A DNA stretch of 64,000 bases. It comes from Anaspis maculata (taxonomy: Eukaryota; Arthropoda; Insecta; Coleoptera; Scraptiidae). Under the pieces are notes generated by a model. That model did not search any database. It had not been told where the DNA came from and saw nothing but the letters and a program-made list of their open reading frames with translations. How positions within the stretch are numbered: position 1 is the stretch's first letter; each line of letters begins with the position of its first letter. The position numbers and the translations under genes were made by a program. Shown here piece after piece: positions 6,833-58,012 of the stretch. Location of the stretch: NCBI GenBank assembly GCA_949128115.1, contig OX421967.1, positions 5,942,070 to 6,006,069 of the forward strand. Reading direction: 5' to 3'.

Positions 6833-7079
6833 TTGAAATAAATATTTCACCCATATTTCTGTGCCACCTGGGGCTTCTATATGTACCCTATAAGTTTTTG
6901 CAGATATAATTCTATGTTTTCTATCTGCGAACTACTGTTTCGAAAACAGAATACAGAACATATAGAAAACATATAGAATTCTATATGATTTTTTTCATGA
7001 TTTTATCTGAAATTTCCGACAGGGATATTTTTGGAGATGGGTTTTGTTTAGCTCGGTACAAACAGCGGTTGTACTGGAA
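6833..7079. other. 3' flank of zinc-finger gene A
   Basis: About 7036-7079 is the 3'UTR shared with gene B and with the duplicate at 16879-16935 (complement of AACCGCTGTT and CTCCAAAAATAT). The similarity stops at about 7035. The remainder is AT-rich with no recognised gene. Confidence 0.5.
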
Positions 7080-9224
7080 TTAGTTGATTTCTTCATTCGC
7101 AGCATGTCTCAACATGTGTCTATTCAACTGTGACTTCTGTTTAGCTTTGTACGAACAATGGTTGCACTGGAACCAGTTGACCTCTTCATTCGCAGCATGT
7201 GTCAACATGTGCGATTCCAAATGTGACGTTCGCTTAGCTCGGTACGAACAATGGTTACACTGGAACCAGTTGATCTCTACATCTGCAGCATGTTGCAACA
7301 TGTGTCTATTCAAATTAAATTTCTGTTTAGCTTTGTACGAACAATGGTTGCACTGGAACCAGTTGACTTCTTCATTTGCAACATGCTTACACATGTGGTG
7401 ATTCTTTAAATGTGACTTTTGTTTAGCTTTGTACGAACAATGGTTGCACTGGAACCAGTTGACCTCTTCATTCGCAGCATGTGTCAACATGTGCGTCTTC
7501 AAACTTGACTTGAGTTTAGCTTGGTACGAACAATGGTTGCACTGGAGCCAGTTGACTTCTTCATTCGCAGTGTGTTTCAACATGTGCTCCTTCAAATGTG
7601 ACTTCCGTTTACCTCTGTACGAACAATGGTTACACTGGAACCAGTTGATCTCTTCATCTGCAGCATGTTTCAACATGTGTATTTTCAAATGACACTTGTG
7701 TTTAGCTTGGTACGAACAATAATTGCACTGGAACCAGTTGACCTTTTCATTCGCAGAATGTTTTAACATATTGTGCATTTTCAAATTTGACTCATGTTTA
7801 GATTGATACAAACAATGTTTGCAAACGAACCAGTTGATCTCTTCATCTGCAGCATGTTTCAACATGTGTCTATTCAAATGTGACTTGTGTTTAGCTTGGT
7901 ACGAACAATGGTTGCACTGGAACCAGTTGACCTCTTCATTTGCAGCATGTTTTAACATGTGCATTTTCAACTGTGACTTCTGTTTAGCTTTGTACGAACA
8001 ATGATTGCACTGGAACCAGATGACCTCTTCATTCGCAGCATGTTTTAACATGTGCATTTTCAAATTTGACTTATGCTTAGATTGATATGAACAATGATTG
8101 CAAACGAACCATTTGATTTCTTCATTCGCAGCATGTTTCAACATGTGTCTATTGAAATGTGACTTTTGTTTAGCTCTGTACGAACAATGGTTACACTGGA
8201 ACCAGTTGATCTCTTCAACTGCAGCATGTTTCAACATGTGTATGTTCAAATGACACTTGTGTTTAGCTTGGTACGAACAATGATTGCACTGGAACCAGTT
8301 GACCTCTTCATTCGCAGCATGTTTCAACATGTGCATTTTCAAATTTGACTTATGTTTAGATTGATACGAACAATGATTGCAAACGAACCACTTGATTTTT
8401 TCATTCGCAGCATGTTTCAACATGTGTCTATTCAAATGTGACTTCTGTTTAGCTCTGTACGAACAATGGTTACACTGGAACCAGTTGATCTCTTCATTCG
8501 CAGCATGTTTCAACATGTGCATTTTCAAATTTGATTCATGTTCAGATTGATACGAACAATGATTGCAAAAGAACCACTTGATTTTTTCATTCGCAGCATG
8601 TTTCAACATGTGCCTATTTAAATGTGACTTCTGTTTAGCTCTGTACGAACAATGGTTACACTGGAACCAGTTGATCTCTTCATTCGCAGCATGTTTCAAC
8701 ATGTGCATTTTCAAATTTGATTCATGTTCAGATTGATACGAACAATAACTGCAAATGAACCACTTGATTTCTTCATTCTTCACTCCAATATTTCTGACGG
8801 TTATTCTTGCACCGGTCCTATCCAAATCTGACGAATCCATGTCTTCGGCCTCTTCTGTGGTTTGTTGTGATTTGCCCGCCGGCTGAATTACACATAAACC
8901 CCGATGTTTCACAAGAGATAAACTCGAGTCCGACTTGTACCTGCAGTGGTCACACAGATATCTTTCAAATGCTTTGCAAAACGTCCCATTTTCATTGTTC
9001 CCGATAGTCCTCAGATCATGTACTTGTTTGCAATGTTCGTACAATTCGAACTGATAGTAGCTCTTGTAGTCGCAAATCATGCAAGGAAACTCTCTAGGTT
9101 CGACAATGGCATGGTACAATGCGGCTGCATAAACATTTTTGTGATTCCTTTGGACGTGGTGGGCGAGTTGAAAGGCGGATTCAGTCCGATGCGAACATTG
9201 CGAACAGTTGTACGTGTCGGCCAT
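7080..9224 (-). CDS. tandem C2H2 zinc-finger protein A (714 aa)
   Basis: A probable nuclear DNA-binding protein. The start chosen is ATG at 9224 (MADTYNCSQC); the 24 codons open upstream belong to the 5'UTR intron, as gene B confirms. Three divergent N-terminal fingers are followed by an acidic spacer and about 18 near-identical fingers, C-x2-C-x12-H-x3-H with the core WFQCNHCSY. Linkers are about 10 residues (AANEEINWFQ type), not the TGEKP linker. Repeats differ mainly at helix positions -1, +3, +5 and +6, the DNA-contacting residues of C2H2 fingers. Two fingers have an extra residue before the second His (HHMCKH, HNMLKH). No KRAB, ZAD or BTB domain is visible. The frame is intact. Gene B is its inverted paralogue. 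Target unknown. Confidence 0.85.
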   Translation of the reverse strand: MADTYNCSQCSHRTESAFQLAHHVQRNHKNVYAAALYHAIVEPREFPCMICDYKSYYQFELYEHCKQVHDLRTIGNNENGTFCKAFERYLCDHCRYKSDSSLSLVKHRGLCVIQPAGKSQQTTEEAEDMDSSDLDRTGARITVRNIGVKNEEIKWFICSYCSYQSEHESNLKMHMLKHAANEEINWFQCNHCSYRAKQKSHLNRHMLKHAANEKIKWFFCNHCSYQSEHESNLKMHMLKHAANEEINWFQCNHCSYRAKQKSHLNRHMLKHAANEKIKWFVCNHCSYQSKHKSNLKMHMLKHAANEEVNWFQCNHCSYQAKHKCHLNIHMLKHAAVEEINWFQCNHCSYRAKQKSHFNRHMLKHAANEEIKWFVCNHCSYQSKHKSNLKMHMLKHAANEEVIWFQCNHCSYKAKQKSQLKMHMLKHAANEEVNWFQCNHCSYQAKHKSHLNRHMLKHAADEEINWFVCKHCLYQSKHESNLKMHNMLKHSANEKVNWFQCNYCSYQAKHKCHLKIHMLKHAADEEINWFQCNHCSYRGKRKSHLKEHMLKHTANEEVNWLQCNHCSYQAKLKSSLKTHMLTHAANEEVNWFQCNHCSYKAKQKSHLKNHHMCKHVANEEVNWFQCNHCSYKAKQKFNLNRHMLQHAADVEINWFQCNHCSYRAKRTSHLESHMLTHAANEEVNWFQCNHCSYKAKQKSQLNRHMLRHAANEEIN

Positions 9225-13932: not shown

Positions 13933-16179
13933 ATGGCCGACACGTACAACTGTTCGCAATGTTCGCATCGGACTGAATTCGCCTTTCAACTCGCCCACCA
14001 CGTCCAGAGGAATCACGAAAATGTTTATGCAGCCGAACTGTACCATGCCATTGTCGAACCTGGACAGTTTCCTTGCATGATTTGCGACTACAAGAGCTAC
14101 TATCAGTTCGAATTGTACGAACATTGCAAACAAGTACATGGTCTGAGGACGGTCGGACACAATGAAAATGGGACATTTTGCGAAGAATTCGAAAGGTATC
14201 TGTGTGACTACTGCAGATACAAGTCGGACTCGGGTTTATCTCTTGTGAAACATCAGGATTTATGTGGAATTCAGCCGGCGGGCAAACCACAACAAACCAC
14301 AGAAGAGGCCAAAGACCTGGAATCGGCAGATTTGGATAGGACCGGTGCAAGAATGACCGTCAGAAATATTGGTGTGAAGAATGGAAAAATCAAGTGGTTC
14401 CTTTGCAATCATCGTTCGTATCAATCTGAACATGGATCAAATTTGAAAAAGCACATGTTAAAACATGCTACGGATGAAGAGATCAACTGGTTCCAGTGTA
14501 ACCATTGTTCGTACAAAGCTATACAGAAATCAACTTTGAATAGACACATGTTGGAACATGGTGCAAATGAAGAGGCCAACTGGTTCCAGTGCAACCATTG
14601 TTCGTACAGAGCTAAACGAAAGTCACAATTGAAGAGGCACATGTTGCAACATGTTGCAAATGAAGAAGTCAACTGGTTCCAGTGCAACCATTGTTCGTAC
14701 AGAGCTAAACAAAAGTCAAACTTAAAGACGCACCACATGTGGAAACATGTTGTTAATGAAGAAGTCATCTGGTTCCAGTGCAACCATTGTTCGTACAAAG
14801 CTATACAGAAATCAACTTTGAATAGACACATGTTGAAACATGGTGCAAATGGAGAGGCCAACTGGTTCCAGTGCAGCCATTGTTCGTACAAAGCTAAACG
14901 AAAGTCAGTTTTAAAGACGCACCACATGTGGAAACATGCTGAAAATGAAGAAGTCAACTGGTTCCAGTGCAACCATTGTTCGTACAGAGCTAAACAAAAG
15001 TCAACATTGAAGAGGCACATGTTGCAACATGTTGCAAATGAAGAAGTCAACTGGTTCCAGTGCAACCATTGTTCGTACAAAGCTAAACAGAAGTCACAGT
15101 TGAAAATGCACATGTTGCAACATGTTGCAAATGAAGAAGTCAACTGGTTCCAGTGCAACCATTGTTCGTACAGAGCTAAACAAAAGTCACAATTGAAGAG
15201 GCACATGTTGCAACATGTTGCAAATGAAGAAGTCAACTGGTTCCAGTGCAACAATTGTTCGTACAGAGCTAAACAAAAGTCACAATTAAAGAGGCACATG
15301 TTGCAACATGTTGCAAATGAAGAAGTCAACTGGTTCCAGTGCAACCATTGTTCGTACAGAGCTAAACAAAAGTTACAATTAAAGAGGCACATGTTGGAAC
15401 ATGTTGCGAATGAAGAAGTCCACTGGTTCCAGTGCAACCATTGTTCGTACAGAGCTAAACAAAAGTCAAATTTAAAGACGCACCACATGTGGAAACATGT
15501 TGCAAATGAAGAAGTCAACTGGTTCCAGTGCAACCATTGTTCGTACAAAGCTATACAGAAATCAACTTTGAATAGACACATGTTGAAACATGGTGCAAAT
15601 GAAGAGGCCAACTGGTTCCAGTGCAACCATTGTTCGTACAAAGCTAAACAGAAGTCACACTTGAAAATGCACATGTTGAAACATGCTGCAAATGAAGAGA
15701 TCAACTGGTTCCAGTGCAACCATTGTTCGTACAAAGCTAAACAGAAGTCACAGTTGAAAATGCACATGTTGAAACATGCTGCAAATGAAGAGATCAACTG
15801 GTTCCAGTGCAACCATTGTTCGTACAGAGCTAAACAAAAGTCACATTTAAAGACGCACATGTTGAAACATGTTGCGAATGAAGAAGTCAACTGGTTCCAG
15901 TGCAACCATTGTTCGTACAAAGCCAAACGGAAATGTAATTTGAATAGACACATGTTGACACATGCTGCGAATGAAGAGATCAAGATCAACTGGTTCCAGT
16001 GTAACCATTGTTCGTACCGAGCTAAGCAAACGTCACATTTGAAATCGCACATGTTGACACATGCTGCGAATGAAGAGGTCAACTGGTTCCAGTGCAGCCA
16101 TTGTTCGTACAAAGCTAAACAGAAGTCAAAGTTGAATAGACACATGTTGAGACATGCTGCGATAGAAGAAATCTACTAA
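13933..16179 (+). CDS. tandem C2H2 zinc-finger protein B (748 aa)
   Basis: Inverted paralogue of gene A with the same start (MADTYNCSQC). Three divergent N-terminal fingers and a linker about 150-165 residues in are followed by about 19 fingers of 27-30 residues with the core WFQCNHCSY. The first of the array is broken (CNHRSY, second Cys replaced by Arg) and one has CNNC. The HHMWKH type recurs three times, a sign of block duplication or gene conversion within the array. Helix positions +3 (Q, H, T, N, V, K) and +6 (R, M, T, S) vary while scaffold residues hardly change. One linker is longer (EEIKINWFQ). The frame is uninterrupted. Likely a sequence-specific nuclear DNA-binding protein; target and effector function unknown. 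Confidence 0.85.
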   Translation: MADTYNCSQCSHRTEFAFQLAHHVQRNHENVYAAELYHAIVEPGQFPCMICDYKSYYQFELYEHCKQVHGLRTVGHNENGTFCEEFERYLCDYCRYKSDSGLSLVKHQDLCGIQPAGKPQQTTEEAKDLESADLDRTGARMTVRNIGVKNGKIKWFLCNHRSYQSEHGSNLKKHMLKHATDEEINWFQCNHCSYKAIQKSTLNRHMLEHGANEEANWFQCNHCSYRAKRKSQLKRHMLQHVANEEVNWFQCNHCSYRAKQKSNLKTHHMWKHVVNEEVIWFQCNHCSYKAIQKSTLNRHMLKHGANGEANWFQCSHCSYKAKRKSVLKTHHMWKHAENEEVNWFQCNHCSYRAKQKSTLKRHMLQHVANEEVNWFQCNHCSYKAKQKSQLKMHMLQHVANEEVNWFQCNHCSYRAKQKSQLKRHMLQHVANEEVNWFQCNNCSYRAKQKSQLKRHMLQHVANEEVNWFQCNHCSYRAKQKLQLKRHMLEHVANEEVHWFQCNHCSYRAKQKSNLKTHHMWKHVANEEVNWFQCNHCSYKAIQKSTLNRHMLKHGANEEANWFQCNHCSYKAKQKSHLKMHMLKHAANEEINWFQCNHCSYKAKQKSQLKMHMLKHAANEEINWFQCNHCSYRAKQKSHLKTHMLKHVANEEVNWFQCNHCSYKAKRKCNLNRHMLTHAANEEIKINWFQCNHCSYRAKQTSHLKSHMLTHAANEEVNWFQCSHCSYKAKQKSKLNRHMLRHAAIEEIY

Positions 16180-16239
16180 TTCCAGTACAACCGCTGTTCG
16201 TACCGAGCTAAACAAAACTTATTAAAAAAATATTAGCAG

Positions 16240-18557: not shown

Positions 18558-19232
18558 ATGAAAATGAAGCTGAGGTGCATACATAATATTCGACATACAA
18601 AAGATACTGTCATGGGAAAATATGGAGATTTGTTTTCGGGAATAGGAGAAATCAATCCACCCTATCACAATAATTTAATTCCAAACGCACAAACGGTGAT
18701 CACCCCAATAAGAAAAGTACCATTTGCTTCACTTGATCCTCTTGAAAAGGCGCTAAATGATTTAGAAAAAAGTAAAGTAATAGAAAAAGCTGGAGGACCG
18801 AGTGATTGGATGAATCCATTGGTACTTGTGAAAAAGCCCGACAATTCATTGAGAATCTGCCTTGATCCGTTTCATCTAAACAAATCAATTAGGAGCAGAG
18901 AACATAGCAGATTATTAACTTTTGAAGAAATAACAAGTCGTATGTCCGGAGCTGAAATTTTTAGTAAATTAGATGCAAATCAAGCGTTTCATCAAATACC
19001 GCTTGATGAAGAAAGTTCAAATCTCTGCACATTCGGTACACCCTTTGGAAGGTACAAGTACAAAAGGTTACCCTATGGTATTACTTGTTCGCCCGAAATA
19101 TTCAATGAAAGGTTCAGAAGCATTTTTAATTGCAATAACGTAGGAGTGTACTTCGATGACATCATTATTTGGGCAAAAGATCAAGAAGAACATGACGAAA
19201 TTCTTGAAAAAGTATTGAATTCAGCCAGATAG
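18558..19232 (+). pseudogene. gypsy reverse transcriptase (fingers and palm)
   Basis: The 224-residue frame has the expected order: EKSKVIEKAGGPSDWMNPLV, RICLDPFHLNKSI, FSKLDANQAFHQIPL (catalytic Asp), LPYGITCSPEIFNERF and VYFDDIIIWA (the usual YxDD with Phe). A stop at 19232 follows the palm; the continuing thumb sequence (FMGHIINEKGIGID) is readable at 19233-19380 before another frame change. The enzyme is therefore split and inactive. Confidence 0.85.
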
Positions 19233-19634
19233 CATGGAGTCAAATTCAATCTAGCAAATTGCCCAATTGCGGTTGATAAAATTAAATTTATGGGACACAT
19301 TATAAATGAGAAAGGAATTGGAATTGATACAAATGGAGTTGAAGCTATAAAAGAAATTCCCACACCAAAGTGTAAAGAAGACGTTCGGTCTTCGCTCGTT
19401 CGCGTTTGATCGGTGTTGTAAGTTATGTAAATAAATACATTCCGAACTATTCAATAGAAACACAGGCACTGAGAGATCTTTTGAAAAAAGATACACACTT
19501 CAGTTGGAAAGAACCTAAACACAAGCTTTCGAAAAAATTGAGAAAAAATTAACTCAAAGTCCTGTTTAACAGTTTTTTAATCCCAAGAAAAATATCACGA
19601 TGTCAGTAGATGCAAGTCAAAACGGCGTAGGTGC

Positions 19635-19997
19635 ATGCCCACTACAAGAAAACAAACAAACAAACCAGTCTGCTATTCATCAAAATCATTTACAGAAACA
19701 CAGAAATTCTATTCCCAGATAGAAAAAGAGATGTTTGCAGTTTTATACGGGTTGCAAAAATTCCACCATTATGTTTTTAGAAGACAAGTCATAGTGGAAA
19801 GTGACCATAAACCACTTTTGGCCATAATTAAAAAACCAATCGATGAATGTCCGCCCAGACTACAACGTTTGCTGCTACAATTACAAAAATACCAATTCAC
19901 TTTAAATTACAGAAGAGGCAGCGAACTAATAATTGCAGACGCATTGTCGCGAGCCTATTTGCCTGAAACGGACCCAAATAACGAAGAACATATATGA
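19635..19997 (+). pseudogene. gypsy RNase H domain
   Basis: Reads VCYSSKSFTETQKFYSQIEK (catalytic Glu), ESDHKPLLAI (catalytic Asp) and IIADALSRAY (final Asp), the normal RNase H motif order of Ty3/gypsy Pol. The first Asp of the domain lies just upstream in another frame (MSVDASQNGVGA, about 19600). Confidence 0.8.
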
Positions 19998-22871: not shown

Positions 22872-23019
22872 AACGAAGTATACTATCGGTACCCAGACAT
22901 TGGATTCAATGCTCAACGCAAATCCCTCACAAAAGAGGATAATGGAACCATCGAACGGTGTCAAGATTGGACCACCACTGAAATGGTGATCGGGGCCGAA
23001 TGGCCAGAAGATGCATTCA

Positions 23020-23461
23020 GCGTTGTCAAGGAGAAAGTAGGCGACGTTCTCGAGGTCCCGGAAAAATTTGCCCTCGCACACTGCGTCGCCGCAGACCTGA
23101 GAATGAGCAGGGGCATCGCTGTGAAGTTCAAAGACAGGTTTCAAAGTGTTGCACAGTTGAAAAACAGAACGCTCAAACAGGAGAAGTCGCAACCCTGTTG
23201 AAAGAAACAGAATTGGAGGGAGGTGAGGTTACCCTGAGGAGGGTTTATTATCTGGTGACAAAACCCAAATCAGACGAAAAGCCAACACTGAAATCTATGT
23301 ACGACAGTCTGGTCGAACGAAGAAAGCTCATGCAACAACATGGAGTCAAGAAACTTGCAGCCCCGAAAATTGGATGCGGAAGGGACAAATTAAAATGGAG
23401 CGACGTGAAGAAGATTTTGGAGGTGGTGTTTGAAGAAGGAGACATCGAGATATTGATATAT
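23020..23461 (+). pseudogene. TARG1/OARD1-like macrodomain inside LINE 1 ORF1
   Basis: The first part (22983-23201 frame) has VPEKFALAHCVAADLRMSRG and GIAVKFKDRF. After one frameshift near 23180, the second part (frame from 23000) has GEVATLL, RRVYYLVTKP, EKPTLKSM and APKIGCGRDKLKW, then DIEILIY. This is the element order of the TARG1/OARD1 macrodomain, which removes ADP-ribose from proteins and deacylates O-acyl-ADP-ribose. The family's catalytic Lys (EKPT) and Asp (GCGRD) are both present. It runs directly into the usual pre-knuckle region of ORF1 (GTQIAVITATRKEAERLL), so it looks fused to Gag rather than merely adjacent. Confidence 0.8.
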
Positions 23462-23785
23462 GGAAGCGGAACGCAAATCGCAGTCATCACAGCCACAAGG
23501 AAGGAAGCGGAGAGATTACTGGGAGAAAAAAGAGTACGCATAGGCCTAACCTGGTGCAGGATACAGGAAAGGGTCCTAGCAAATAGATGTTTCAGGTGCT
23601 GGGAGACCGGCCACTCGACATCAACATGCAAGGGTGTCGACAGGTCTCAACTCTGCTTCAATTGCGGCGCAGCGGATCTCCAGGCGAGGGAGTGTAGGCC
23701 GTCTGCCAAATGTGTGAAATGCGGACAAGAGGGCCACAGGACAAACTCTAAAGGTTGTAACGTGAGCCCACAAAATGAACAATAG
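23462..23785 (+). pseudogene. LINE 1 ORF1 zinc knuckles
   Basis: Three knuckle positions: CFRCWETGHSTSTC (complete CCHC), CFNCGAADLQAREC (the His is missing) and CVKCGQEGHRTNSKGC (complete, slightly long). R1-clade ORF1 proteins normally end with three CCHC knuckles that bind RNA. The frame stops at 23785 and the endonuclease frame overlaps it from 23775. Confidence 0.8.
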
Positions 23786-24660
23786 CAACACATCACCAAC
23801 TCGGATGCCAACGGGCCAAACACACCACGGAGAAGGCAACGAAACCGTCCAGAAACTGAAGTTTTTGCAGATCAACTTCAACCGAAGTAGAGCAGCCCAC
23901 GACATATTGCAAGCCACAGCGACTCAAGAAAAAATTGACTTCCTTGTAGTGTCTGAACCAAACAAGTCCCTGGTGAAGAGCAACGAAGCCTGGATCACGG
24001 ATATAGAAGGAGACACCGCAATTCCAGTACTGGGGCCTGACATTCCAGTGCTTGAATCTGGGACAGGGCAGTGCTACGTCTACGATGAAACTCCTGGACT
24101 TTATCCTGGTGAGCTGTTACTTTTCGCCCAATTGCTCCTTACAGGAACTACAGAACAACCTGGAATTCCTGGCAAACGACATAAGAGGAAGAGCTAAAAA
24201 CACCATCATCTGCGGCGACTTCAACGCCAGCGCCCCAGAATGGGGATGTGGTCTAAACAACCAAAGAAGCGATGCAGTGAATGGATGGCAACACTAAATC
24301 TCTGTGTCCTGGACGGAGGAAGCTCTCCAACCTTCGAAGGCTCTGGCGGAACCTCTACGGTTGACTTAACGATGGCCCATGGCGCACTTGCATCACAAAT
24401 TACGAATTGGAGAGTTCTAGATGAAGAAACGCTAAGCGATCACAAATATGTCAGTTTCGCCTTACTTGGCTCGAAGACAAAACTTCCTAAAGCAAAACCC
24501 GGTGGCTGGATGTTGAGGAAAATGAACCCTGCGTCACTGTCGGAAGCCTCAGAGAGGGAGTTCAAAAGAGTGCATGACAGGACCCCGGAAAACCTCATCA
24601 TCGCAATAACAAGAGCGTGTGGCAAAGTGATACCCCGCAGGAACTCAGGAAGCCAAACCA
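23775..24660 (+). pseudogene. LINE 1 AP endonuclease domain, frameshifted
   Basis: Motifs in order but in three frames: LKFLQINFNRSRAAHD, VVSEPNK (catalytic Glu), IICGDFNASAPEWG (GDFN), STVDLT and SDHKYVSF (SDH). This is the R1-clade apurinic-like endonuclease that nicks the target. The domain is nearly full length but split. Confidence 0.8.
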
Positions 24661-24690
24661 TCCTATCGCCACCGGAAGCAATGTTTACTT

Positions 24691-25320
24691 GTGACGATAG
24701 ACATCAGGAACGCCTCCAATTCGGCTTCGTGGGTTGAAATCGTGAAGGAACTCGACAAAAGACAAGTGGACCCTAACCTCTTTCTCTTGATCATATGCTA
24801 CTTCGAGAACAGAAACATAGACATAGGCGAAGGAAGGAAATCCGAAACGATAAGCGTGAACTCTCAGCGAGTGCGAGCGAGCGAGCGAGTGGTGTTCCCC
24901 AGGGAGCGGTCCTGGGACCAAATCTCTGGAGCCCTGTACGACGGTGTGCTGAGACTACCAATGCCAGAGGGAGTGACGATGGTGGCCTTTGCCGACGACC
25001 TCGCGATCGTGGTCGTCCACAAGGACCCCGAGACCCTTGTTCGGAGGACGAACGTAACCGTCGAAAGAGTCGTGGCCTGGCTCAGGAGCAAGTCACTGGA
25101 AATTGCTTCGGCAAAAACGGAGGCCGTACTGCTGGCAACGAAAAGAAAAGCACCGGACATCACGATCCAGATTGCCAATCTGGAAGGCAGTCGCGATCTT
25201 CCTGGGCACCGTGATTCGCAAAAGGTCCGAAGCCGAAAGAAAAAGAGAGAAGGAGACCATCTGAACATCAAACGCCAACCATTTGTCGAAGTTGATACTA
25301 ACGTGGTTCCAACACATAGA
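24691..25320 (+). pseudogene. LINE 1 reverse transcriptase, fingers deleted
   Basis: It joins the endonuclease directly to the palm: VTIDIRNASNSASW (first catalytic Asp), then GVPQGAVLGPNLW in another frame (about 24891), then VAFADDLAIVV (FADD box). The fingers region, with the PGxDG and RPI motifs, is absent, an internal deletion of roughly 150 codons. A thumb-like VAWLRSKSLEIASAKTEAVL follows. Confidence 0.75.
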
Positions 25321-25435
25321 TAAACATCAGGCATGAAGAGAGGTTTAGTGGGTAGTGCTCCGGCGAGTCCCACACTACCCCGGTGCTGTCCAGCCGGGGT
25401 GTGCGTGAAAGGCATTTCTCTCCTCCCGAAAAAAA

Positions 25436-52484: not shown

Positions 52485-52832
52485 CTAATCGAAGGGACTG
52501 AGATTCACGCCAAACGGGAATCGGGTAGACTTTATATAGGTCGAACGGTTCATTATGATAAGGGGAATTTTCAGAATAAATACAAGTTTGTCGTTGTAAA
52601 TGTATGAATCTACTTCAATTAATTTGGAAATATAGATTAGATTTTTCGGCTTTATTTCAAACGGCAATTGTGGCATTTCCACGGTTGACTTCAATTTTGA
52701 AAGCGCATTGAAAAGATCCTTGGTGGATATGATGCTGGGATGAAAGACTTTTGATTTTGTAAATGATATAGCCAGTAATAATTGATCTAGAATTTTTGAG
52801 ATAGTCTGATACATTAACTGGATTTGGTTCAA
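52485..52832 (-). pseudogene. errantivirus-like envelope, C-terminal part
   Basis: 115-residue frame resembling the membrane-proximal part of insect errantivirus envelope proteins (HPSIISTKDLFNALSKL, then a VFILKIPLI strand). In intact relatives envelope is a membrane fusion glycoprotein. It is separated from the N-terminal part by stops and frame changes (52833-53098) and lacks the transmembrane end. Not functional. Confidence 0.65.
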
Positions 52833-53098
52833 CGTATCAGCAAGATTATGGAGGTGATTGTTGAATTACTTCGTCTCTTAGGATCACTTCAGCTTCCGTT
52901 ATTCGTGTTTCTAAAATTACCTCATTCTGATAAAGATCCATTATAGATTTGTTGAATTTTTCAATAATTTCTGTGGAAAGAGAGTAGTTTTTTGATATTT
53001 TCTTGGAGTGAATTTTGATTTTCGGCTAGTTCCTGAATCATACTCTCGAAGTGAATTCCGTCTTCATCATCTAAATTTCCGGTAATACTTTTAAAAAC

Positions 53099-53500
53099 TT
53101 AACCAAGTGCATTTATCAATCCGCGTTTTTTCCTGTTCAAATTTTGATTCTCTCTAACTGTTGTCTTGTTGGGTAAAATTTCAAAGATACTTTCCTGAAT
53201 GGCGTTTTTTGTATTGTCTATAACTTTCAAATAATTTCCTATTTCCATTGAGTACGTTAGGTTGTTGAATTGTCGTGTCTGTCGGGTCGAGGTTGAATCT
53301 TGTGTGATTATTCGTGTGAGAGAATTGAGGTTTCTGTTGAGTTTTTCAAAGCGGTTGACCAAAATGGATATGTCATAATAGTAAAGTAATTTATGGGAAT
53401 ATGGCTGAATTTTTGCAGTACCTAGGTGTACTAGGAGGAGTCCTGGATTATTTTTAAGGTTCCGTATCTCTATCGGACTCGTGGTCGTTATCAATACCAT
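53099..53500 (-). pseudogene. errantivirus-like envelope, N-terminal part
   Basis: 133-residue frame whose last residues hold a basic RKKR site directly followed by a hydrophobic GLINALG, the furin-type cleavage and fusion-peptide arrangement of errantivirus envelopes. It overlaps the end of the integrase frame by 47 bases, as env commonly does in these elements. A stop immediately after the fusion-peptide start breaks the protein. Confidence 0.7.
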
Positions 53501-54992
53501 GAGCAGTAGGGCGAACCTGCAACAATTTATTGATCTTTAATGCTCGCTTAATGTTTCTCATGTGATATTTGCGTTGTTTTGTGGCAATAACATGTTTGTT
53601 CCTATCAACTGCAACGGGTTTTATCGGTGACCTGAATTTATTTTGGGTTTTGGTCACCCGTCCAGTTTCCTCAGGGTAAATAGCTTGTTCAGCGTCAAGT
53701 TCGATTTGTTCTTTGTCTTTGTTAAGTCTTGATAAGGTTTTCGTTTTATTTTCTTGTAGCCTGTCATTGAGTTCACGGTATAACAGTTTGGTCTTTTCTT
53801 TGTGATTCTGAACATAATTACTAGTCAGTAATTTTTGGCAGTTTATGTCAACAGAGTCGTCTAATTCTAGGTGGCCAAATACAATGTCGATAGGTTTTTT
53901 GCCAGTTGAGGTGTGTATAGAATGGTTATAGGCGAGAACTGCGAAAAGAGTTTTAGTCTTCGAATCTTCAGCTGGGAATTGTTCGTCGAGCAGCCGAATG
54001 TGTTCTAACAGTGTACTGTGTAACCTTTCTACCATGCCGTTGGATTGTGGATTTTCAGGAGTGATAAAATGAATTTTTATTTCATGTAATCCAAATAGTT
54101 CTCTCAAATTTGTGTTTTTGAATTCTGTGCCGTTATCACAAATGATCATCTTTGGAATTCCAAGGTGTGAAAATAATTTCAGAAGGCTCTGAATTATGTC
54201 GATTGAGTTGTGACTTTGTATCTTATAGATTTGAGCGTATTTCGAGAATGCATCTATGCTCGTGAGAAATATTTCCTTATCAATCGTTATCGCATCGATA
54301 TGTATCGTCTCGAAAGGTTTAGTTGCTGTGGGTGTTGGGTTGATTCCCAGTTTCAAGGGGTTGCGTTCGTATTTTGTACGTTGGTAGATATCGCAGGTAT
54401 TTATGTATGTCTGAATTGAATTTTTCATGTTAGGCCAATAATAAAGACTTTTAATTTTTGCCTCTGTTTCATTTATACCGCGATGATTGCTCTTGCTCTC
54501 GTGATATATTCGTAGTACTTCAGGTATTTGGTTTTCCTCTACATCTATTAATTTTTGTTTTGTACAAATGAATTTATAGTGAGGCCACTTGAATGTTTTC
54601 CTCACTGTCTCGCAAAATGAATAGTATGCTTCTGGGGGATCAAAAATCATGTGATAAGTTATTTCGGGTACGATGTATTCCCTTATAAAGTCAATGATTT
54701 CGGTGTCGAAATTATTTTTATCGATTTGGACAAGTAATCTCTGTCTGTTTGGGAACGCCTTTATAATTTTGGTTCGAGCTGGAGAGTGATTGACCAGTTC
54801 GACTTCAATTCGATTTTGACTTTTATTCAATATGTCGTCAGATATCGGAATTTCAACAATAGGGTTTTCTTGGTCATTAGAATGTTGAGTACCTACCGTC
54901 ATCATTTTCAGGCTCTGGTAATGGGCTATCAGGTTCTGGTAATGGGTCATTAGGTTCTGGTAATGGGTCATGAGGTTCTGGTAATGTGTCAT
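53454..54992 (-). pseudogene. gypsy integrase (512-residue frame)
   Basis: Residues 164 and 170 give the His pair, Cys 200 the first Cys; the second Cys is replaced by Tyr 203 (TCDIYQR), so zinc binding is probably impaired. The DDE core is intact: Asp 233 (IHIDAIT), Asp 286 (ICDNGTEF) and Glu 322 (NGMVERLH), with 35 residues between the last two. The C-terminal region is basic. The first 28 residues are a frame-shifted reading of the PEPD repeat of the preceding frame, so the true upstream join is by frameshift. Confidence 0.85.
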
Positions 54993-55010
54993 CAGGTTCA
55001 GGTACCTGCT
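54895..55010 (-). repeat. minisatellite in gypsy pol encoding PEPD repeats
   Basis: About five copies of an 18-21-base unit (plus-strand GGTTCTGGTAATGGGTCAT). One frame reads PEPxDPLPEP, another MTHYQNL. The pol and integrase frames overlap here, so repeat slippage is a natural cause of the frameshift that separates them. Confidence 0.85.
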
Positions 55011-55113
55011 GGATGTCGTTTTCGTGGTCGCGATCTATAACAACTGGTTCAAGGGTTTGATCATCGGCTTCGTCTATAGCTATTGTTGGTACGATTTTGG
55101 GCTCAGTTTCGTT

Positions 55114-55533
55114 AAGAATGTGAATGCGTATATTGACGGGAGTGTTCCGAAAGGTGGTTTCGATCATTTGGGATATTCTTTCCCATTTTAGGCCATCAAG
55201 CCCACAAGAAATTTTTGACATAGCAAGATCTTCAACATTACGTCGTAAACAGAGATCTTTCAAATAGGTGAGTGATTCTTGCAGATTTTCGTAGGTAGGC
55301 TTGTCATGGTAACTAGACTTCGTGATCATATAATAAACGTATCTAGAAGGGAGTTTTAAACAGGCGACCTCTCCAACTTCTTTACGTTGTTTTGTTAGAG
55401 TCGATATATGATTAAATCTTGTTCGAAACTGAACTGCGATCCCTTTGTTCATTATAAGGTCTTGAGAAATACAGTGAGCAAGGGAGAAATGTTCAGGGGC
55501 GTCAAAAAGGTTTCCATTCAAAATTTTGATTCC
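55114..55533 (-). other. TARG1/OARD1-like macrodomain in gypsy Pol
   Basis: Residues 276-415 of the Pol frame: GIKILNGNLFDAPEHFSLAHC, MNKGIAVQFRTRF, GEVACLKL, RYVYYMITK, HDKPTYENLQESL, LAMSKISCGLDGLKW and VNIRIHIL. Length (about 140) and motif order equal the TARG1 family (about 150 residues), which removes ADP-ribose from glutamate/aspartate and deacylates O-acyl-ADP-ribose. Lys 353 (DKPT) and Asp 388 (CGLD) sit at the family's catalytic positions. The domain itself has no stop or frameshift. Its origin is probably a host TARG1 gene. The role in the element is unknown; opposing host PARP-dependent silencing is a guess. Confidence 0.88.
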
Positions 55534-56398
55534 ATTTGAATTTTCTTTTTGTGACGTCGAAGGCATACCGATCTCTGATTGTTCGTCTTTGTTGGCGATT
55601 AGAGAGGCTTTTTCTAATTCGTCATTGAATTCTCTGATATAATCATGAATATTCTGAGGTATATCGGTTTCATTGATATTGATTTCTATGCGAGATAGAG
55701 CGTCTGCATTGGAATTCAATTTTCCTTTTTTAAAGATGATTATATAATCATATTCCTCGAGCTTGAGGCGCCACCTGACCAGTTTGGAGTCGGGTTCCTT
55801 GAGAGAGAATAACCATATCAAGGGTTTGTGATCAGTGATAATAATAAACTTACGTCCAAAGACATAGGGCCTCAAGTACTTCACGGCGTACACAATTGCC
55901 AGAAGTTTCTTTTCGATCGTGGAGTAGTTTTGTTCCATATCATTGAGAGTTCGTGATGCAAAGGCCAAGGGCAGGTCATTACCAATGGGCCCTTGAGACA
56001 AAACGGCTCCAATGGCTACGCTGCTCGCATCGGTGGTCAGGTTAAACGTTTTAGAAAAGTCAGGATACTGAAGGATGGGCTCGTTCATCAATGCCTTCTC
56101 ACATGTGTCGAAATAAGACAAGAATTCATCATTATGGGTAATTGTGGCATCTTTTTTCAAACATTTAGTCAATGGTTTGGTGAGTTTCGAGAAGTCTTTG
56201 ATGAACTTTCTATAGTAGCCCAAGAGCCCTAGAAATCTTTTTAGCTGCTTTGGCGTTTTTGGGATGGGAAAATTTTGAATAGCACTAACTTTTTCTGGAT
56301 TGGACTTAATGCCATTGAGTGTAACATCATGACCCAAGTAATTTACTTCTTTTCTCAAGAACTCGGACTTGTCCAGTTGAAATTTTTCACTTTTTTCC

Positions 56399-56697
56399 TT
56401 TTTTAGTGGTGGGGGGTAATTTTGACGTTTGTCATGTCAAAACTGTTTTTTTGTATTTGTCATCATTGAAATGTCAACATGAACGTAATCTACCATTTCC
56501 ATATCAGTAGTGGAACCAAAAGACCAACAAAGGTTTTCTCAGGAAACCTGGACTCAAAGGAAAAAACACCGAACGAAAACTAGAAATTTATTAGCTGAAA
56601 ATGACAGTATACATTCATGTTGACATTTCAATGATGACAAGTACAAGAAAAAAGTTACGACATGACAAACGTCAAAATTACCCCCCACTACTGAAAA
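56399..56697. mobile_element. palindromic MITE of about 300 bp
   Basis: The left arm (56399-56484; TAGTGGTGGGGGGTAATTTT, GACGTTTGTCATGTC) pairs with the right arm (56613-56697). Arms are about 85 bp with a few mismatches and a spacer of about 130 bp. It marks the 5' end of the truncated gypsy element. Confidence 0.8.
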
Positions 56698-58012
56698 AGT
56701 ATAAACGTGAAGAATTTGCACATTATGCTCGAATGGCCAACAATGTGTCCAATTGGAATCAAAAAAAGAATTATGGTCCTACTTGTATTCGTCTAGGAGA
56801 TATCACTTCTGGAAATTTCCAGTGACTTGGGCAGGAACAAAATCACCCATGATGTGACTGATTGGTAACCATGGTAATTTTGATGCAACGTATGGTCACC
56901 AGTCTTGCATTTTTATTCATGCTGGAGTCAATAAGTGTCAATGTGATGTCACAGCATGCTTCATTAGGTACCTCCCCCGAAGAGGTCCAGAGGAAAACCT
57001 CTTCTGGGGGCCCATGAGGTCAAATTTTCTCATGGTATAATTCATTCAGCAATTGTGTACGTTTCTGCAAATTTTCAAGAAAAAGCAACAGCTCTAGCAA
57101 ATTATGTATCAAAAAATCCAAATTCCACAAAAAAATCAAGAACTCTTTGAAGAAACAAAATACGATCAAACGTCAAAAACCGTTGCGAGATATTTGAATC
57201 CGCTTTCTAAAACTGAAGAGAAAAAAAATCCGAAATTTTTCCTAAAAAAGTTCCACGACTTCAAAAATTGACACTTTTGACACTCCTTCCTTTAGCATCC
57301 TGTGTATCATGGACAAAGTCAATGGTGTCGTAAGTCGACATAACGTCTTACAGCTAAAGAAAAGCTGTACCAGGCACCATAAACTTTTTTCAAATCGGAT
57401 ATTTTTTCCCTAAGATATCTCTCCTTGAAATTGGAGCAAATTTTGGTCTATGCTTAACTTTTGACGAGCAGTTTAGATTATTGCTTGTACCGCTCCGACT
57501 ATACTCAGTTATCACTCAGCAAGGATAGATTAACTCAAAATCTACGACGTCAAAATGCAATATTGGATATTTCGGTTATTCGGCCAGAATTCGCAATAGT
57601 TCGCATGTTTTCTGCATGAATGAAGCTTGGTGGCACTGTAGTAATAAAATAGTGGATCATGCCAAAAAATCAGTCATGAAGTGATCGAAATTTCCATAAT
57701 AATAACTATTAGGTTAAAATCCAACAATAAACCGCAAGGTACCTACACCATAGCTATTTAGATATATTTGAGTGATTTTATGAATTTCGTGTTCACCGTA
57801 TTTCATTGGTTTTTTATCAGGTACTCATTGCTAGAACAGGTAAAAAGTAGCACGATAAAATTTTCATTATTTTTGACCTTTTTCTCTCGAAGGAATATCA
57901 GAACATTGCGAAACTGCTTTGATCCCTATTATTTGTGTTCGTATATTCACGTGGACCAGATTCCGTCGATTGACTCACCAACTTTCCCATCGAAGTTCAA
58001 AATAAACAAAAC
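56698..58012. other. gene-free stretch before copy 3
   Basis: Contains a 74-residue frame (56601-56825) that I do not recognise. The final 250 bases upstream of exon 1 of copy 3 should hold its promoter, but no convincing TATA box is visible. Otherwise AT-rich, with no gene. Confidence 0.4.

Follow-up and report, generated by a model that had tools for sequence, protein, structure and literature searches.

What could a domain of a type that removes adenosine diphosphate (ADP)-ribose be doing inside the polyprotein of a retroelement? The question is raised by a locus of the beetle Anaspis maculata, in a stretch of 64,000 nucleotides of contig OX421967.1 (assembly GCA_949128115.1, positions 5,942,070 to 6,006,069 of the forward strand), which we refer to as the window. 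Here, an errantivirus-like Pol carries, between RNase H and integrase, a macrodomain (P0001) of the TARG1/OARD1 type, recognizable by its sequence, its predicted fold and its catalytic residues. The domain occurs in many copies of the same genome and in several slots of different retroelements, and it bears the marks of constraint.

P0001 shares 50% identity with human TARG1/OARD1 and is like it in length and predicted fold, its fold being closest to that of TARG1. Its KPT and CGLD motifs align with those of OARD1, and the equivalents of Lys84 and Asp125 are present as residues 78 (55300-55302) and 113 (55195-55197). The role of these two residues in TARG1 is described in passages of PMC8501950 and PMC5725667, according to which the enzyme removes ADP-ribose from Glu/Asp, thymidine and DNA ends. 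The domain assignment of the initial annotation, which had placed a TARG1-like macrodomain with both residues between RNase H and integrase, is thereby borne out. The element consists of the following parts.

55114..55533, minus strand: TARG1/OARD1-type macrodomain P0001, 140 residues, in the errantivirus-like Pol
54877..56436, minus strand: stop-to-stop frame of 519 amino acids with RNase H, macrodomain and then acidic, Pro-rich repeats
55750..56115, minus strand: RNase H (PF17919, PF17917)
54910..55014, minus strand: 21-nucleotide tandem repeats 3' of the macrodomain
54048..54539, minus strand: integrase (next frame), consisting of an H2C2 zinc domain and an rve core
52488..53536, minus strand: env, broken
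56380..56717, no strand: inverted repeat with 122-nucleotide arms (56380-56501 and 56596-56717), 86% complementary

The order of RNase H followed by the H2C2 and rve domains of the integrase is that of Ty3/gypsy elements. Together with an env remnant of the Baculo_F type and the short long terminal repeats (LTRs) and 4-bp duplications of family members, the integrase supports the errantivirus-type assignment that had been made from the sequence alone. One of the env pieces (52865-52488) scores 34.2 bits with Baculo_F, above the cut-off, and the other (53536-53102) 18.1 bits, below the cut-off of 24.1; among the listed protein matches, the relative P0078 is labelled TED virus. The window copy itself is dead. 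It is split over two frames, that of the macrodomain and that of the integrase, which overlap at 54877-55034, at the 21-nucleotide repeats, and it is truncated: similarity to related Pol proteins ends at 56385, at the inverted repeat, and no upstream reverse transcriptase of this element was found with five Pol queries.

A truncated copy, split over two frames, could suggest a one-off chimera, a dead insertion or an assembly artefact, a view that the number of copies in the genome refutes. We scanned the host genome (757.8 Mb, 50 contigs) with P0001 and scored 150 places out of 489 candidates. In 64 of these matches, with the window among them, identity to P0001 is 74% or higher (counted by eye); these constitute family 1, and many lie in long open frames, seven of them in an open frame of 1482 amino acids. 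Six of these seven copies are flanked by LTR pairs of 191-192 bp that are 100% identical, with target duplications of TATA, TATA, TACA, TACA, TGCC and TACA; for the seventh, no LTR pair was found within the pieces examined. In family 2, each of three copies examined has an LTR pair of 160-210 bp (97.6-100% identical), and a clear duplication is seen in one. LTRs were read in family members, while the surroundings of the window copy were covered by a repeat scan of the window.

Families 1 and 2 (L021, L088) encode, in a single frame, RNase H, macrodomain, a second domain that we call the bridge, and integrase. Beyond what the initial annotation had foreseen, other slots in retroelements of this genome hold the domain as well. 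The more distant gypsy element of family 3 (L089) has the macrodomain, and no bridge was found in it. Family 4 (L090) has the macrodomain between protease and reverse transcriptase, beside a degenerate macrodomain stretch, and family 6 (L125) has a like pair of stretches before the reverse transcriptase, with the protease outside the frame that was read; in both of these gypsy-type elements, one of the two macro-like stretches is degenerate and the other is of the catalytic type. In family 5 (L124), the macrodomain is found ahead of the protease; its frame of 1341 amino acids recurs in five listed matches, apparently of one family, of which L124 was read.

The domain also occurs in non-LTR retroelements, one of which lies in the window as a broken copy (22872-25323, plus strand).

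22872..23785, plus strand: second TARG1-like macrodomain, split between two frames, with zinc knuckles after it; open reading frame 1 (ORF1) of the non-LTR element
24007..25323, plus strand: pieces of the endonuclease (PF14529) and reverse transcriptase (PF00078) of the same element

Elsewhere in the genome, such ORF1s have the macrodomain ahead of the zinc knuckles in open frames. In the long interspersed nuclear element (LINE) family LINEa, ORF1 has 805 amino acids, a length found in five listed matches, and the macrodomain is present in nine of nine related loci scanned; in LINEb, the domain is carried by an ORF1 of 661 amino acids. The window further contains a more distant gypsy-type element with reverse transcriptase and RNase H (18597-19979, plus strand) and two long repeat arrays (7042-8778 and 14380-16217), mutually inverted, with pieces about 81-87% alike.

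One representative of each of eight families in the host genome retains KP and G-x-D. A purpose-built macrodomain profile matches every one of these families; Pfam Macro is above its cut-off in families 2 and 4 and in LINEb, and in a search of the PDB, TARG1 is matched by family 5 at 2.3e-36 and by LINEa at 2.9e-29. The macrodomain call thus comes from our own profile for families 3 and 6, and from this profile together with the TARG1 match for family 5 and LINEa.

Relatives from other sources were sought with P0002, which yielded 1443 protein matches, of which 120 were listed; the counts given in the following refer to these 120. The precomputed Macro domain is annotated in five of these Pol proteins. 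With our iterated profile, the number of proteins with a macrodomain rises to 29, which further argues against a chimera; among the 29, P0048, P0076 and P0113 come from named insects. A macro-profile match and other copies with the order RNase H, macrodomain, integrase, on which the initial annotation had made its proposal depend, are therefore both at hand, in families 1 and 2 and among these 29 proteins. The catalytic motif is complete in some of them (e.g. P0005, P0014), eroded to various degrees in others and lost in P0048, P0076 and P0121. Even so, five degenerate domains are recognized, at 99.5% probability, by a profile built from 14 other macrodomains, the two sets having no sequence in common. 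The bridge precedes the integrase in 62 proteins and occurs together with the macrodomain in two. P0029 has tandem macrodomains (residues 484-620 and 659-787), the second of which is degenerate; it is filed under a spirochaete metagenome-assembled genome, and its source is probably contaminating animal DNA. TARG1-like macrodomains of 27-41% identity were also seen in viral contigs and phage records (L001-L019; H1-H14).

How often the domain was gained can be bounded from its distribution. Because it occupies four kinds of slot, there must have been at least four insertion events, whichever the donor. For a midpoint-rooted RNase H tree, we used the window and 86 of the 120 proteins, omitting 29 of unjudgeable architecture and five with less than 200 amino acids of RNase H. 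In a clade of 22 rows, 19 have the macrodomain; in another of 65 rows, 59 have only the bridge, and the macrodomain appears at two separate places. One comprises five rows around P0013 and P0016 (95/84), and the other is the window itself, in a set of four (98/89) with P0004, P0008 and P0044. As these nearest kin all lack the macrodomain, the lineage of the window either gained it separately or they lost it. As to whether all LTR macrodomains form a single clade, the domain trees, built on about 139 columns with human OARD1 as the sole cellular sequence, speak neither for nor against. Families 1-4 grouped together in 878 of 1000 bootstraps, a resolution that was lost after families 5 and 6 and the LINEs were added. 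Since these trees do not separate the possible donors, the uptake of a host enzyme that the initial annotation had proposed is one candidate origin among others.

Substitutions in family 1 point to constraint. We compared 41 full-length copies, six of them with a stop, namely that of the window and 40 from the remaining 63, taking majority codons as reference. Private changes amount to 79 non-synonymous and 28 synonymous, a neutral-like ratio (2.55-3.41 expected), as opposed to 20 and 19 among changes common to at least two copies (Fisher p 0.016, or 0.0067 for the 35 stop-free copies; these values are rough owing to shared ancestry). Between families 1 and 2, pS is 0.79 and pN 0.30. These patterns support the view that the domain has been under constraint in the source lineages; the earlier proposal that it was kept intact under selection is supported for these lineages.

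We now return to what the domain may do. The reading that we favour, with moderate confidence, is that a TARG1-type ADP-ribosylhydrolase is carried as retroelement cargo and erases ADP-ribose added by the host, which would favour the completion or integration of complementary DNA (cDNA). In the family of the window, the domain would be made within Pol, between RNase H and integrase, and would therefore be expected in particles, near the cDNA and the integration machinery. Host transferases may attach ADP-ribose to the DNA ends of the element, to single-stranded cDNA, to Pol or Gag, or to chromatin proteins; the domain would strip it off, and this erasure would favour either step. Several points weigh against this reading. 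Many element macrodomains elsewhere persist without the Lys, the Asp or both, and the fold may therefore have a different use. In families 4 and 6, the Asp of CGLD is retained but the CGL is missing; Pfam Macro is below its cut-off in family 6 and unreported in families 3 and 5 and LINEa; and family 2 alone (16 copies) shows no significant contrast between private and shared changes (p 0.16). Moreover, the action of ADP-ribosyltransferases on retroelements of this animal and catalysis by the domain, like its substrate, benefit and donor, are inferences.

Because some relatives are degenerate, two rivals stay alive. The domain could be a reader that anchors the integrase at ADP-ribosylated chromatin or repair sites by binding to them, much as chromodomains reportedly guide the integrase of chromoviruses. 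We regard this as unlikely: the macrodomain does directly precede the H2C2 domain in elements that have it without the bridge, and several of the 29 proteins have degenerate motifs, but the eight host-genome representatives retain Lys and Asp, and the slots before the protease, between protease and reverse transcriptase, and in LINE ORF1 do not adjoin the integrase. Somewhat less likely still, the domain could be a structural spacer without ADP-ribose chemistry, a globular and stable insert that is tolerated where it lies between the domains of Pol. Degenerate domains such as those of P0048, P0076 and P0121 and the second one of P0029 would fit this view, and the fold of the bridge may be related; against it stands the recurrence of a single enzyme type in different slots and in different classes of element, none of the eight representatives having lost either catalytic residue.

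If the domain is indeed an eraser, a wider proposal can be made, which we advance tentatively. It may be a portable anti-restriction device found in at least four kinds of retroelement place (between RNase H and integrase in at least two gypsy lineages, between protease and reverse transcriptase, before the protease, and in LINE ORF1), taken from a host gene or passed from element to element, which would imply that reverse transcription or integration in insects is restricted by ADP-ribosylation at a step hitherto unrecognized. A TARG1-type domain that looks catalytically complete, in the Pol of many copies, some with identical LTRs, and in other retroelement classes, would single out ADP-ribosylation as a candidate branch of the defence against mobile DNA; its occurrence hints at a little-known contest between the two.

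Coronaviruses and alphaviruses are among the viruses known to encode macrodomains. Among the best matches in the open-licence literature, we found no report of a macrodomain inside a gypsy or errantivirus Pol or a LINE ORF1. TARG1/OARD1, the human terminal ADP-ribose glycohydrolase 1, is a cellular, stand-alone enzyme, whereas the domain of the window is fused within Pol, with a putative activity. The macrodomain of the DarG antitoxin (DarTG) is bacterial and has 22-23% identity, and the NCBIfam DarG model scores far below its cut-off. Predicted TARG1-like folds occur in viruses of or from arthropods (Kadipiro virus VP8, with 45% identity, a thrips flavi-like virus, an entomopoxvirus and iridescent viruses), which are not retroelements. 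Some fish epsilon-like retroviruses have additional ORFs, e.g. for macro domain proteins, according to a passage of PMC4977317 (citing Basta et al. 2009), and so offer a precedent of a retrovirus with a macro domain; by this description, they differ from the element in the window, where the macrodomain lies inside Pol. An orchid Ty3/gypsy element with a captured N6-methyladenosine (m6A) demethylase, as outlined in parts of PMC9289625, has likewise acquired a host-like modification eraser, yet in a plant, in a separate ORF and with a different chemistry. With the errantiviruses, the insect endogenous retroviruses of the Ty3/gypsy group, the family of the window shares RNase H, integrase, a Baculo_F-type env remnant, short LTRs and 4-bp duplications; the macrodomain that it has in addition, placed after RNase H and before integrase, sets it apart from them.
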